A stretch of DNA of 64,000 bases from Brachyspira pilosicoli (GTDB lineage Bacteria > Spirochaetota > Brachyspiria > Brachyspirales > Brachyspiraceae): contig NZ_SAXY01000055.1 of NCBI RefSeq assembly GCF_008016535.1, forward strand, positions 1-64,000. The letters are read 5' to 3'. Position numbers and translations under genes: made by a program. Under the pieces are notes generated by a model. The model was not told where the DNA came from, did no database searches, and saw only the letters and a program-made list of their open reading frames with translations. Shown piece after piece: positions 1 through 51,625 of this stretch (positions are counted from its first letter, which is position 1; every line of letters starts with the position of its first letter).

Positions 1-811
1 TATATTTATTTAATCGTGAATAAAATTCTCTCTCGTCTATGCCGTGTACTCTTTCTACTACGCCGTTATATCTTGGTGTTGCTACAGGAATATATCTTCT
101 CTCTAATTTATTTTTTAAGCAGTATTCGTCAAAAATATTTATTTTAGGAGTATTAATACAGCGATAAGTATATTCCATACCATTGTTACCACAGGCACTT
201 CCTTCGGTCGCTGTTTGTATAGCCTGTATCTTAAAAGGTGAAGTTTTTAAGACATATTTTAAGAAAGATAAAGCACTAGAAGGTGTTTTATCTTCATAGA
301 TTTCTCTCCAACTATAACGAGCAGCTAAATCTACAGCAGTGAATTGATAAACTGTTTTTCTGCCTAATTTGATATATTTAGTGTCTATTTGAACTATTTT
401 GCCTTCTTTTTGTATTTTAGAGACAAATTTTCGTTTATCATATCGCTTCTTTTTCTTTTTTGTTTTATATCTCCAAAGATTATTTCTTTTTAGTACATTC
501 TCTATAGCTGTAACACCTATCTTAATGCCTTCACGATTTAAATATGCTTTAATATAATGCTTACCTCGATATTCTTTAGTATAGAGTTTAATAATTAAAT
601 TAATAGCTTCTTGATTATTAAAGATATTTGGGGAAGTTTTTGGTCTAGTGCTAAAATTGGCGACAGTTCCAGTGTCTTTATATTTTTTAAGCCAAGCATA
701 AAAAGTAGATTTGGGTATTTCTTCTATCTTTAAAAATCTTTTAATATTTTTAGTTTCTAATGCTTCATCCACTATAAATAATTTAAATTCTGTGCTATAA
801 TCTTTTTTCAT
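1..811 (-). pseudogene. DDE transposase, copy 1, catalytic motif interrupted by a 24-bp in-frame insertion
   Basis: The protein starts at 811 and runs off the left edge. It has an N-terminal helix-turn-helix, a second HTH with a Lys/Arg-rich linker, and an rve-type integrase core. The first catalytic Asp is visible in QIDTKYIKLG and the last Glu in the RYNGVVER context. The middle Asp, which in the copy at 48.2-49.1 kb lies in IQTDNGIEYT, is gone: 24 bp (187-210) split its codon, giving IQTATEGSACGNNGMEYT. The reading frame stays open but catalysis should be lost. Sequence at the edge (RLNKY) shows that the A-run frameshift of the third copy is absent here. It is called a pseudogene only because the Asp is missing. 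Confidence 0.8.
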
Positions 812-5249: not shown

Positions 5250-5565
5250 TATTGTTCTTTTCCCAGCCTTCGCTATGCGGACTTTGTCAAAGTTTTACCC
5301 TTCGCCTACGCTTCGCGAAAGTGCAAATATTTAAGTTTTATATAGTATATAAAATAATATAATATATTCTTTGTTATACTTCATAAAAATGCAGTTCTTT
5401 TGGTTCTTTTATACCAATAAAAGAACTGGGGGTGCGGGGGCTAGTCCCCGCAAATAATTTAAAAAAACTAATTTTTAATAAACTTTAAAATTTTCAATGT
5501 ATATTGAAACAATAATTTTTTATCAACTTTTTCCCGTAGCAAAAAGTTGCAAAAAGTACAAGTAA
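5250..5565 (+). repeat. Mosaic intergenic repeat, region A (beta, alpha, beta modules)
   Basis: This fills the gap between two convergent genes (5206-5669). A GC-rich beta block with ACTTTGTCAAAG at 5280-5291 and CTTCGCGAAAGTGCAAAT at about 5310-5328 is followed by an AT linker. An alpha block begins ATGCAGTTCTTTTGGTTC at 5389, contains the hairpin AGTTCTTTTATTGG-type arms and ends GGGGGCTAGTCCCCGC. A second linker leads to CAACTTTTTCCCG at 5524. The same order recurs in other gaps of the window on either strand. The alpha block can be read as a 22-codon ORF, but other copies contain stops or frame changes, so I treat it as repeat. Confidence 0.8.
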
Positions 5566-25124: not shown

Positions 25125-25425
25125 TTAAGTTTCTCAATTTTGTTTTTAAATTTTATTGTTTGCGGGGACTAGCCCCCGCACCCCCACTTCTTTTGCGACC
25201 GAAGGAAGTGCCGGCGACTGAAAGAAGTACCTTTAGGTAAGGCGTGACCCAAAGAAGCAAAAAGACTGCATTTTTTAACCTGAAATACAAGTATTATTTT
25301 ATACTAATACATATTCTTAAGACATTATCGATAGTACTTGCGTTTTTTGCAACTTTTTGACGAAGTCCGCACCGCGAGAGCGACAAAAAAGTTGATAAAA
25401 AATTATTATTTCAAGCCACTACGGG
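25125..25425 (-). repeat. Mosaic intergenic repeat, region C (inverted alpha-beta)
   Basis: This fills the space between convergent genes, almost up to the DUF3810 stop. In minus orientation, alpha begins ATGCAGTCTTTTTGC near 25273. Its central hairpin is replaced by GC-rich blocks (GCGACCGAAGGAAGTGCC at 25195-25212, then GCGACTGAAAGAAGTACC), and it ends in GGGGGCTAGTCCCCGC (25162-25178). Linker and beta (TTTGACGAAGTCCGCACCGC, about 25355-25375) follow. The GCGACC block is the one that also occurs inside two transposase genes. Confidence 0.82.
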
Positions 25426-44444: not shown

Positions 44445-44472
44445 CACTCGCTGTAAAAAGCGAGTGTTTTTT
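44445..44472 (+). terminator. Terminator of the alr-symporter unit
   Basis: CACTCGCT (44445-44452) pairs with AGCGAGTG (44459-44466) around a 6-base loop and is followed by TTTTTT. It lies 18 bp after the stop. Confidence 0.92.
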
Positions 44473-44489
44473 ATTTGCAGAAGAAGAGT

Positions 44490-44778
44490 TAAAATGTTTG
44501 CACTTTCACGAAGCGTACCCAAAGGGTAAAAACTTTGACGAAGTCCTCACTGCGACTGAAAGGAGTCCTTCAGGGCGACCGAAGGAAGTGCCTGCGAAGG
44601 CAGGAAAAGTTGAATAAAAAAATCATATAACAAAATATACTTATTCCAGAATATACTAAAAATTTTTAACTTTTTTTATTTTTATTATTTGCAGGGCTTT
44701 GCCCTTAACGAAGTAAACACCGTGCAGCACCCCAGTTCTTTTATTGGTATAAAAGAACTAAAAGAACTGCATTTTATT
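44490..44778 (-). repeat. Mosaic intergenic repeat, region D1 (inverted beta-linker-alpha)
   Basis: Part of a 760-bp gap without genes. Beta (44490-44620) is enriched in GC-rich blocks: ACGAAGCGTACCC, CTTTGACGAAGTC, GCGACTGAAAGGAGTCC and GCGACCGAAGGAAGTGCCTG (44575-44594). A linker with TTCCAGAATATACT leads to alpha in minus orientation (44690-44775), with a full hairpin AGTTCTTTTATTGGTATAAAAGAACT. The 20-bp GCGACC block is identical to the insertion inside the transposase copies. Confidence 0.85.
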
Positions 44779-45035
44779 ATAAATTTTATAATTTAATTGT
44801 ATATTAAAAGGTATTCCCCCGCACGTATAAGAAGTTATAATTAAAACATGGTATTACCGTGCGGCAAGGTGGTACAGCTCGTACGCGGGAAAAAGTTGAA
44901 TAAAAAATTTATTATATATTTGAAAACTTTTAAGTTCATCAATTTTTGTTTTTAAATTTTATTATATTCGGGGGCTAGCCCCCGCACCCCTACTTCTTTT
45001 ATTGGTATAGCAAAAGAACTGCAATTTCAATAAAA
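44779..45035 (+). repeat. Mosaic intergenic repeat, region D2 (gamma and alpha modules)
   Basis: A gamma block (about 44779-44912) is nearly identical to 51499-51625. It contains CCGCACG (44819-44825) facing CGTGCGG (44858-44864), then GTACAGCTCGTACGCGGG and AAAAAGTTGAATAAAA. A second alpha tail follows at 44969-45030 in minus orientation (GGGGGCTAGCCCCCGC). From 45036 to 45185 the sequence is AT-rich and I see nothing in it. Confidence 0.8.
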
Positions 45036-48233: not shown

Positions 48234-49136
48234 TGTCATGGAGCCATAGATATTGTACTTTTACTTGCTATAATATTTTTGATTCTTTCTTTGATTGTAA
48301 TATACAATAACGAAGAAATCAATCTTTGATTGTTATAAAAATGTGTATATTCTTTTAATTTTTCTCTTAATAATTCTACTTGATATTTTTATTTAATCGT
48401 GAATAAAATTCTCTTTCGTCTATGCCGTGTACTCTTTCTACTACACCATTGTATCTTGGTGTTGCTACTGGAATATATCTTCTCTCTAATTTATTTTTTA
48501 AGCAGTATTCATCAAAAATATTTATTTTAGGAGTATTAATACAGCGATAAGTATATTCTATACCATTGTCTGTTTGTATAGCTTGTATCCTAAAAGGTGA
48601 AGTTTTCAATACATATTTTAAGAAAGATAAAGCACTATAAGGTGTTTTATCCTCATAGATCTGCCTCCAACTATAACGAGCAGATAAATCTACAGCTGTG
48701 AATTGATAAACTGTTTTTCTGCCTAATTTGATATATTTAGTGTCTATTTGAACTATTTTGCCCTCTTTTTGTATTTTAGAGACAAATTTTCGTTTATCAT
48801 ATCGCTTCTTTTTCTTTTTTATTTTGTATCTCCAAAGATTATTTCTTTTTAGTACATTCTCTATCGCTGTAACACCTATCTTAATGCCTTTACGATTTAA
48901 ATATGCTTTAATATAATGCTTACCTCGATATTCTTTAGTATAGAGTTCAATAATTAAATTAATAGCTTTTTGATTATTAAAGATATTTGGAGAAGTTTTT
49001 GGTTTAGTGCTAAAATTAGCGACAGTTCCAGTGTCTTTATATTTCTTAAGCCAAGTATAAAAAGTGGATTTATTTATTCTTTCCATCTTTAGAAATCTTT
49101 TAATATTTTTAGTTTTTAATGCTTTATACACTATAA
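48234..49136 (-). mobile_element. IS481/IS3-like element, copy 3 (5'-truncated)
   Basis: The left terminus TGTCATGGAGCC is present at 48234. The right part, including about 20 transposase codons and the right inverted repeat, is replaced at 49136/49137 by the left end of copy 2. The remnant of right-end sequence is not found beyond copy 2, so this is not a simple insertion into copy 3. Confidence 0.85.
48236..49131 (-). pseudogene. DDE transposase, copy 3: truncated and frameshifted, catalytic Asp intact
   Basis: The reading frame opens at a chance ATG (49131) within the truncated start and keeps the catalytic motifs QIDTKYI, IQTDNGIEYT and RYNGVVER. It stops after RLNKNIK at 48376. Two extra bases in an A-run (five where copy 1 has three) shift the frame. 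The other frame resumes YQVELLREKLKEYTHFYNNQ and ends SKSTISMAP at 48236 inside the terminal repeat. Alone among the three, this copy lacks the 24-bp insertion. Confidence 0.85.
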
Positions 49137-50152
49137 TGTCATGGAGCCATAGATATTGTACTTTTACTTGCTATAATATTTTTGATTCTTTCTTTGATTG
49201 TAATATACAATAACGAAGAAATCAATCTTTGATTGTTATAAAAATGTGTATTTTAATCGTGAATAAAATTCTCTTTCGTCTATGCCTTGTACTCTTTCTA
49301 CTACGCCATTGTATCTTGGTGTTGCTACAGGAATATATCTCCTCTCTAATTTATTTTTTAAGCAGTATTCATCAAAAATATTGATTTTAGAGGTATTGAT
49401 ACAGCGGTATGTATATTCCATACCATTGTTGCCACAGGCACTTCCTTCGGTCGCAGTTTGTATAGATTGTATCTTAAAAGGTGAAGTTTTTAAGACATAT
49501 TTTAAGAAAGATAAAGCACTATAAGGTGTTTTATCCTCATAGATTTCTCTCCAACTATAGCGAGTAGCTAAATCTACAGCTGTGAATTGATAAACTGTTT
49601 TTCTGCCTAATTTGATATATTTAGTGTCTATTTGAACTATTTTGCCTTCTTTTTGTATTTTAGAGACAAATTTTCGTTTATCATATCGCTTCTTTTTCTT
49701 TTTTGTTTTATATCTCCAAAGATTATTTCTTTTTAGTACATTCTCTATAGCTGTAACACCTATCTTAATGCCTTTACGATTTAAATATGCTTTAATATAA
49801 TGTTTTCCCCTATACTCTTCAGTATAGAGTTTAATAATTAAATTAATAGCTTCTTGATTATTAAAGATATTTGGAGAAGTTTTTGGCTTAGTACTAAAAT
49901 TAGCGACAGTTCCAGTGTCTTTATATTTCTTAAGCCAAGTATAAAAAGTGGATTTATTTATTCTTTCCATCTTTAAAAATCTTTTAATATTTTTAGTTTT
50001 TAATGCTTCATCCACTATAAATAATTTAAATTCTGTGCTATAATCTTTTTTCATAGTAGTATCCTTTTATTTGTTTTTTATATCAAAATATTATAACAAG
50101 GATACTGCTTTTTTTATACTAAAAAATGTCCAATATCTCATACTCCTAAACA
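49137..50152 (-). mobile_element. IS481/IS3-like element, copy 2 (both ends present)
   Basis: Both termini are present: TGTCATGGAG at 49137 and ...CTCCTAAACA at 50152. The flanks ACACTATAA (left) and ATACTATAA (right) differ by one base and could be a 9-bp target duplication. Internally about 43 bp are missing relative to copy 3, between short TTTAAT repeats, so the element is 1016 bp. It stands head to tail with copy 3. Confidence 0.85.
49236..50054 (-). pseudogene. DDE transposase, copy 2: catalytic Asp split by 24 bp, C-terminus lost
   Basis: The protein starts at 50054 (MKKDYSTEFKLFIVDEAL) with two HTH regions and the integrase core. The 24-bp insertion at 49430-49453 yields QTATEGSACGNNG instead of QTDNG. 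The 43-bp deletion near 49250 replaces the last roughly 50 residues with KYTFL. First Asp (QIDTKYI) and Glu (RYNGVVER) remain. It should be inactive. Confidence 0.85.
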
Positions 50153-51334: not shown

Positions 51335-51625
51335 ATATTTTTTAAGTTTTTTATTTGTGGTGGCTTTGCCCTATGCGAAGCGTACCCGTAGTGGTACACG
51401 TCCCCACTTCTTTTGCGACCGAAGGAAGTGCCGGCGACTGAAAGGAGTACCTTTAGGTAAGGCGTGACACAAAGAAGAAAAAGGACTGAATTTTTATGAT
51501 AAATTTTATAATTTAATCGTATATTAAAAGGCAATCCCCCGCACGACTAAAAAGTTATAATTAAAGCATAGCATTACCGTGCGGAAAGGTGGTACAGCTC
51601 GTACGCGGGAAAAAGTTGAATAAAA
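51335..51625 (+). repeat. Mosaic intergenic repeat, region F (alpha plus gamma)
   Basis: This fills the 334-bp gap between convergent lrgB and folD. An inverted alpha carries inserted GC-rich blocks: GCGAAGCGTACCC, then GCGACCGAAGGAAGTGCC (51415-51432) and GCGACTGAAAGGAGTACC. The gamma block (51499-51625) repeats 44779-44905 almost base for base. The two D/F copies share more than 120 bp. Confidence 0.85.

Follow-up and report, generated by a model that had tools for sequence, protein, structure and literature searches.

A GC-rich block of 24 bp is a discrete unit: intergenic hairpins of Brachyspira, and repeats in several unrelated phyla, either contain it entire or lack it. In one draft genome of B. 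pilosicoli it also stands in frame at the second catalytic aspartate codon of an IS481-like transposase. From the comparison of copies it is suggested, with confidence a little short of even, that the unit may have been copied into this codon as a patch of about 26 nt from a filled hairpin (one that carries the unit), and then exchanged among the copies of the IS, which it would inactivate.

Results

The insert in the window transposase

The window, i.e. the whole stretch of DNA analysed here, covers the first 64 kb of contig C65 in a draft genome (G000; 2.755 Mb, 113 contigs). Its transposase features are the following:

188..211 (-): 24-bp unit GCGACCGAAGGAAGTGCCTGTGGT, preceded by Thr codon ACA and followed by the codon of the second catalytic Asp, which has become AAC (Asn)
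2..811 (-): gene of an A-type, IS481-like transposase that holds the unit; it is cut off by the contig end
49431..49454 (-): the unit again (GCGACC...TGTGGC), in L128, where it occupies the same codon
49236..50054 (-): the A-type transposase around this second unit; it also has a deletion of 44 bp farther downstream
48376..49131 (-): neighbouring A-type copy that lacks the unit, CAAACAGACAATGG being intact (L026/L120)

The filled ORF at 2..811 (-) is open and reads IQT-ATEGSACG-N-NGMEY, where intact copies of the same genome read IQT-D-NG. An in-frame insert of 24 bp at the second DDE aspartate had been placed at 187-210 by the earlier note, with an open frame, eight extra residues and a change of Asp to Asn; it is the same event, the shift by one base reflecting alignment ambiguity at the ends, and the comparison with the intact IQTDNG copies bears out all of its consequences. 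The description of the insert as splitting the Asp codon holds as far as 24 bp do lie at that codon, but what is found there is a complete unit between the Thr and Asp codons together with a G-to-A change at the junction, and not a random cut inside the codon. Since the unit is 24 bp long and stop-free, the reading frame survives; read in tandem, the unit contains no stop in any of the six frames. The filled copies are probably switched off, because the change of Asp to Asn alters the DDE motif and eight residues are added at the active site, and they should be catalytically dead.

The 18-mer core of the unit, GCGACCGAAGGAAGTGCC, occurs exactly five times in the window, at 194-211 (-), 25195 (+), 44575 (+), 49437-49454 (-) and 51415 (+), and not once in shuffled sequences. 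All four places listed previously are thus correct, and the list lacked only the fifth, at 49437, which belongs to the second transposase copy with the same insert. In the whole genome, 38 exact copies and 80 copies with at most two mismatches were counted, the reversed control giving none.

The host IS

An intact A-type protein has NCBIfam IS481 as its best family (E 1.1e-50), at 172.8 bits for a cut-off of 224, and it scores 35.1 bits with Pfam rve (PF00665), above the cut-off of 32.6, as expected for a DDE/rve integrase core. Residues D143, D201 and E245, assigned from the known motifs, are presumably the DDE residues. A PDB search with the transposase returned nothing meaningful. The A-type element measures 1035 bp, its ends being read from aligned copies, and an intact copy used as query gave 88 A-like matches in the genome, whereas the sole near full-length match above 45% identity in the other 25 genomes of the genus is one 81% copy (G018). 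A transposase cluster of 47 members, conceivably the A-type IS, is described for B. pilosicoli B2904 (PMC3532143).

A second transposase family of the same genome, the B-type, is about 42% identical to the A-type over its length, and A/B chimeras occur. Two of them (L104 and L111) are B/A transposases with the junction at the IQTDNG codons. Many IS copies in this genome are cut at contig ends.

Filled and empty codons

The unit is found at the second Asp codon (D2) in 11 places of the genome, ten with an A-type and one with a B-type catalytic half. Two of these places, C60:257 and C90:42906, share 599 bp at the start of C60 and the end of C90 without a single difference, and thus probably represent one copy split by the assembly, which leaves ten distinct filled copies. 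The unit is absent from D2 in 65 intact aligned A-type copies, and the filled pattern, the insert followed by AAYAATGG, was seen in only one of the 26 genomes of the genus; a constitutive part of the transposase fold is therefore rejected as an explanation of the insert.

The intact sequence at D2 is CAAAC(A/G/C)GAYAATGG. Its filled forms are CAAACT[unit]AAYAATGG at eight places, CAAACA[unit]AACAATGG at two, and CAAAGT[unit]AATAATGG in the B-type copy. If the unit is taken as GCGACCGAAGGAAGTGCCTGTGGY (with one mismatch in the B-type), the insertion point falls between the Thr codon (Ser in the B-type) and the Asp codon. The base after the unit is A in 10/10 distinct filled copies, while it is G in 64/65 intact ones; the base before it is T in 8/10 filled copies and in 0/65 intact ones. 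The aligned copies contain no target duplication at the D2 site.

Among the 79 distinct 18-mer sites (at most two mismatches) in the loci examined, those read as coding insertions belong to a single transposase family (the 11 places and ten distinct copies mentioned above), accompanied by one IS truncated at the unit; the remaining sites have intergenic-hairpin flanks, a judgement made partly by eye, and some of them are overlapped by long frames (331 codons in L065, 255 in L027). The genome-wide search for coding copies advised by the earlier note thus led back to this one family and the truncated IS, and no other gene was read as carrying the unit. At G000:C32:6554-7186 (L073), the unit marks the point at which an A-type IS breaks off and an intergenic hairpin repeat continues, a recombinant junction.

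A discrete unit in Brachyspira hairpins

Outside the transposases, the window contains both empty host hairpins and unit cores (a slash marks the insertion point here and below):

44735..44758 (+): empty host hairpin GTTCTTTT/ATTGGTATAAAAGAAC
5403..5426 (-): empty host hairpin GTTCTTTT/ATTGGTATAAAAGAAC
44575..44592 (+): 18-bp unit core in an intergenic composite hairpin repeat
25195..25212 (+): 18-bp unit core in an intergenic composite hairpin repeat; a second, diverged unit comes next, at 25214-25231
51415..51432 (+): 18-bp unit core in an intergenic composite hairpin repeat

The genome was searched for the host hairpin as GTTCTTTT[X]ATTGGTATAAAAGAAC, both arms being required to match exactly and X being at most 30 bp, so that longer inserts were out of range. 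Of the 38 sites found, 28 have no insert (X of 0 bp), six have one of 24 bp and four one of 21 bp. Compared with the unit in the IS, the six 24-bp forms differ by one base at two sites and by 4-5 bases at four. In ten genomes, this one included (G000, G002, G004 and G006-G012), 140 sites were counted by hand: 104 are empty, and of the others 22 have inserts of 21 bp, 13 of 24 bp and one of 23 bp. The genome G011 is a single contig and has 15 empty sites, eight with 21 bp and four with 24 bp, so that the quantised inserts are independent of draft assembly. Two 21-bp forms, present in G011 and other genomes at the same point of GTTCTTTT/ATTGGTATAAAAGAAC, are near reverse complements of each other, with 3/21 mismatches against 10 in the direct comparison. 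One orthologous pair (L159/L095) shows two gaps of exactly 24 bp and is the sole clean-block case among ten intergenic pairs from close genomes; in most of the other pairs the whole repeat region differs, the flanking DNA being mostly 89-97% identical.

G or C makes up 15 of the 24 bases of the unit, compared with 27.9% in the window, and the hairpin that it forms as DNA is modest (-3.2 kcal/mol, z -1.86). An Rfam search of the window for structured RNA at gathering thresholds found one tRNA only. Three exact unit cores stand in tandem at 24-bp spacing, with an unusual flank, at G016:C2:628744-628809 (L132). By eye, a second intergenic repeat (CCCCCGCACG ... GTACGCGGGAAAAAGTTGAA) occurs twice beside the hairpin repeats of the window, at 44820-44895 and 51520-51612.

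The unit beyond Brachyspira

In a genome collection of 257 Gb, for which about 0.007 chance matches are expected at equal base frequencies, 72 stretches of 30 assemblies contain the exact 23-mer; 23 of the assemblies are non-Brachyspira and have it in unrelated repeats. The carriers include KSB1, Gamma- and Betaproteobacteria, Poribacteria, two lineages of Patescibacteria, Clostridia and Marinithermofilum, Sulfurovum, an actinomycetote, a bacteroidote, a calditrichote and Desulfoluna; together they represent about ten phyla. The unit is thus not specific to Brachyspira. Many carriers are metagenome bins, in which contamination is possible, and Desulfoluna, Oleiagrimonas and Marinithermofilum are named strains. 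Occurrence is patchy: 20 of the 296 genomes in the phylum of G000 have the unit, 19 of the 20 belonging to the genus, and in the class of one gammaproteobacterial carrier 1/369 genomes has it, namely the carrier itself.

When each assembly is represented once, 21/23 have T as base 24, the next base is always a purine, and conservation drops on both sides, so that the ends of the unit are sharp. In a search with the 18-mer of 20 carrier genomes, which had been picked for the presence of the 23-mer, the right end was again mostly TGTGGT or CGTGGT. Empty sites were also found. The gammaproteobacterial empty site GCGTGG/GCACAAAAATCGTGCCCACC occurs at 26 and 34 places (0-3 mismatches) in two of the five genomes searched and at none in the other three. 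Among the loci examined, the joined flanks had a match with at most 5/30 mismatches for 26 of 53 distinct flank pairs, some of which are self-overlaps of tandem arrays; the clearest cases are from Clostridiales (0 mismatches), Calditrichota (1) and a tandem array of Poribacteria (2-3). Stems of at least 6 enclose the unit in nine of 24 non-Brachyspira contexts (11.4% of control points) and stems of at least 8 in five (control 2.3%), an enrichment that is only suggestive, since some control points lie in coding DNA. The empty-site and stem tests were restricted to flanks of at least 15 or 20 bp.

Long ORFs spanning the unit in other phyla appear, by eye, to be chance or terminal ORFs. No match was obtained in viral contigs with two unit patterns (the scrambled control also gave 0), in plasmids by distant BLAST of window 44460-44800, or in the genome collection with the transposase-context pattern, in a set to which the own genome possibly does not belong. 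In one poribacterial locus (L288, JAPUIP010000569.1, ~1600-1800), a unit-bearing repeat array appears to interrupt a transposase just after its GDREF motif; the second piece of this transposase is PF01609 (DDE_Tnp_1), and the first piece is without a Pfam match.

Possible spread among IS copies, and other modules

Over bases 1-690, pairs of filled A-type copies diverge by 4.6% (21 pairs) and pairs of intact ones by 4.4% (2002 pairs), the filled copies thus being no closer to each other. The nearest 5' relative is an intact copy for 7/7 filled copies, which means little because intact copies are about eight times more numerous. Among 85 aligned A-type copies, linkage between SNPs falls from r2 0.56 at 1-10 bp to 0.19 at 11-25 bp (84 comparisons at like frequency) and 0.04 at 26-50 bp. 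For the D2 insert, two comparisons with SNPs at up to 10 bp give r2 0.038, and six with SNPs at a distance of 11-25 bp give 0.004. In six pairs of filled copies, a run of 67-102 bp is identical on one side, which speaks against very short tracts and is compatible with simple descent or conversion of the usual kind. IS matches shorter than 250 bp and contained sequences were dropped from this set, and for this reason the C90 place, identical to C60, is missing; A copies below 92% identity were also dropped, except L130. The simplest reading of these values is a frequent short-patch exchange between IS copies. Chimeric assembly might give the same appearance of mosaicism at distances greater than the assembler's word length, and in a draft of 113 contigs both the mosaicism and the copy number of the IS are possibly inflated.

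The catalogue of indels in the A-type, with chimeric and B-like rows having smaller alignment gaps set aside, contains two insertion points of module size, D2 and reference position 528 just after the D1 codon. The latter is occupied by a 19-bp module, CGCCTTGCGTACCTTCGGT, in six copies (L101, L103, L117, L118, L121 and L123, the last with one base variant); the module shifts the frame, and two of the six copies also have the unit at D2. In the B-type, D1 is occupied in two copies by a 17-bp module that also forms the core of a different intergenic hairpin, D2 in one copy by the unit, and B reference position 836 in two copies by a module of 20 bp. The last module, GGCGAATGCCCGCAGATGCG, lies in L076 and L230 in the motif FNY/KRI, away from the Asp codons, and L076 has three different modules in one B-type copy. 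With lengths of 19, 17 and 20 bp, insertion in frame is no rule. Strict targeting of catalytic Asp codons, considered as a candidate, is weakened by the third B-type insert at position 836, and targeting of catalytic codons by modules is suggestive only.

Discussion

How the unit may have entered the transposase

The patch copied from a filled hairpin into the second Asp codon would consist of the unit plus one base on each side. In the host hairpin, GTTCTTTT[X]ATTGG, the insert is preceded by T and followed by A, from which a copy of ~26 nt including the Asp-to-Asn base is inferred; the amino acid change would accordingly have arrived together with the patch. Of 12 other full units seen in the genome, three have the preceding T and five the following A, and since the pair occurs with an exact unit in L015 only, the donor inference is thin. 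Once in place, the patch may have been passed on among the IS copies by short conversion tracts, to which its weak linkage to neighbouring sites points. The likely engine would be the replication and repair machinery, through short-patch templated copying at hairpins, and not a transposase belonging to the unit. The case for a hairpin target at the IS site itself is weak, 20% (A-type) and 13% (B-type) of positions doing as well, and the DNA fold of the intact site is ordinary (z -0.05). Templated copying alone leaves the exact recurrence of the unit across phyla and the IS inserts at D1 and D2 unexplained.

On another reading, unlikely in our estimation, the 24-bp unit and its 21-bp sister are true mobile elements, moved by a site-specific enzyme that acts in trans on hairpins, and the same codon was the target of repeated insertion. 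The sharp ends across 23 non-Brachyspira assemblies, the quantised presence and absence in host hairpins, the near-reverse-complement 21-bp forms in one of these hairpins, the diverse backgrounds of the filled IS copies, and the fact that A-type and B-type transposases were both struck at D2 and D1 are as such an enzyme would leave them. It would, however, have produced no target duplication in the IS, the D1 modules of the A-type (19 bp) and B-type (17 bp) are unlike, and the single carrier among 369 genomes of the gammaproteobacterial class also speaks against it. As to the enzyme, the search covered Y1_Tnp only, and RAYT is absent from the genus. Ordinary history, in which one or two chance insertions, in frame by luck, were followed by trans-transposition and homologous recombination among IS copies, is judged slightly more doubtful. 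It agrees with a genome that has so many A-like matches, mosaic IS copies and A/B chimeras (some with junctions at IQTDNG), with the identical runs on one side of some filled copies, with the restriction of the filled pattern to one genome of 26, and with modules that are not in frame as a rule. But it accounts neither for the same unit with empty sites in other phyla nor for the recurrence at D1 and D2 in two families about 42% identical, and it sits poorly with an insert whose linkage at 11-25 bp lies below that of SNPs of like frequency.

It is far less probable that filled copies spread by selection, a dead transposase with its N-terminal DNA-binding region repressing the active copies in a dominant negative manner. 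Some filled copies do keep long open frames without stops (328 codons in C72, 310 in C32), and some differ at synonymous positions at the insert, as read by eye. The 19-bp D1 inserts shift the frame, however, and several D2-filled copies are truncated, have a deletion or also carry a D1 insert (C27, C38). An assembly artefact, by which one or a few real filled copies were multiplied through graph chimeras in the draft, is equally improbable. The 113 contigs, the many IS copies cut at contig ends and the listing of probably at least one filled copy twice, at two contig ends, are in its favour. Against it, four filled copies lie at least 5 kb inside contigs (C65, 49 kb; C32; C27; C38, 67 kb), variants are combined within 25 bp, i.e. 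below the usual assembly word length, and quantised units also occur in the one- and two-contig genomes G011 and G009. We retain templated copying of the patch, followed by exchange among IS copies, as the working explanation.

Relation to known systems

It is possible, although we consider it rather doubtful, that the 24-bp hairpin unit, together with its sisters of 21 bp and comparable lengths, ranks among the smallest mobile DNAs known. It would insert precisely as a block into repeats, in about eleven bacterial phyla, and now and then into genes, by a process tied to the short-patch exchange of ~25 nt among the IS copies of this genome. To our knowledge, how gene-less short palindromes enter new sites is still an open question for Rickettsia palindromic elements (RPEs) and for GC clusters. 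On this question the present evidence is unusually clean: one genome contains many filled and empty copies of an IS family, the inserts of a host hairpin have three lengths with hardly an exception, and other phyla offer the same unit at matched empty and filled sites. The insertion process thereby becomes directly testable. The decay of linkage within ~25 bp among the copies of one IS, if confirmed, would suggest exchange of very short tracts. A literature search with the unit strings, their translations and related topics found no description of the 24-bp unit, subscription papers being outside its scope.

In behaviour, the closest systems are the mitochondrial GC clusters, followed by RPEs and REPs. 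One GC cluster of yeast mitochondria lies in frame in the var1 gene. The unit resembles these clusters (GC42, M1 class) in being a GC-rich palindrome in an AT-rich genome that is present or absent at homologous sites; it differs in its length of 24 bp instead of 42, in its occurrence across phyla in bacterial and not mitochondrial genomes, and in the absence at the IS site of the AG target-site duplication. Yeast GC clusters are described as short GC-rich palindromes of an AT-rich genome with sporadic presence, interspecies transfer, and merger and shuffling of units (PMC4478555).

RPEs, as described in PMC2229807, are palindromic, stop-free elements of 105-146 bp found in frame in many unrelated genes. 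The earlier note had seen in the insert a possible equivalent of these, and the likeness stands for a dispersed, palindromic, stop-free unit that has precise filled and empty sites and lies in frame in a gene. It fails in the length of 24 bp, in coding insertions confined, partly by eye, to one transposase family, and in the modules of 19, 17 and 20 bp in the same IS, which are not multiples of three. REPs mobilised by RAYT are intergenic palindromes of 20-40 bp, sometimes inside genes, and have CGTC families in Spirochaetes (PMC3733652). The unit contains neither GTAG nor CGTC on either strand and sits inside other repeats, and a RAYT-driven REP is rejected because Y1_Tnp (PF01797) was found in 0/26 genomes of the genus, the control being positive in 5/14. 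Recurrent invasion of intergenic regions is known also from the repetitive hairpin-forming elements of sponge mitochondria (PMC2800124); those elements are organellar and differ between lineages, whereas here one exact unit recurs.
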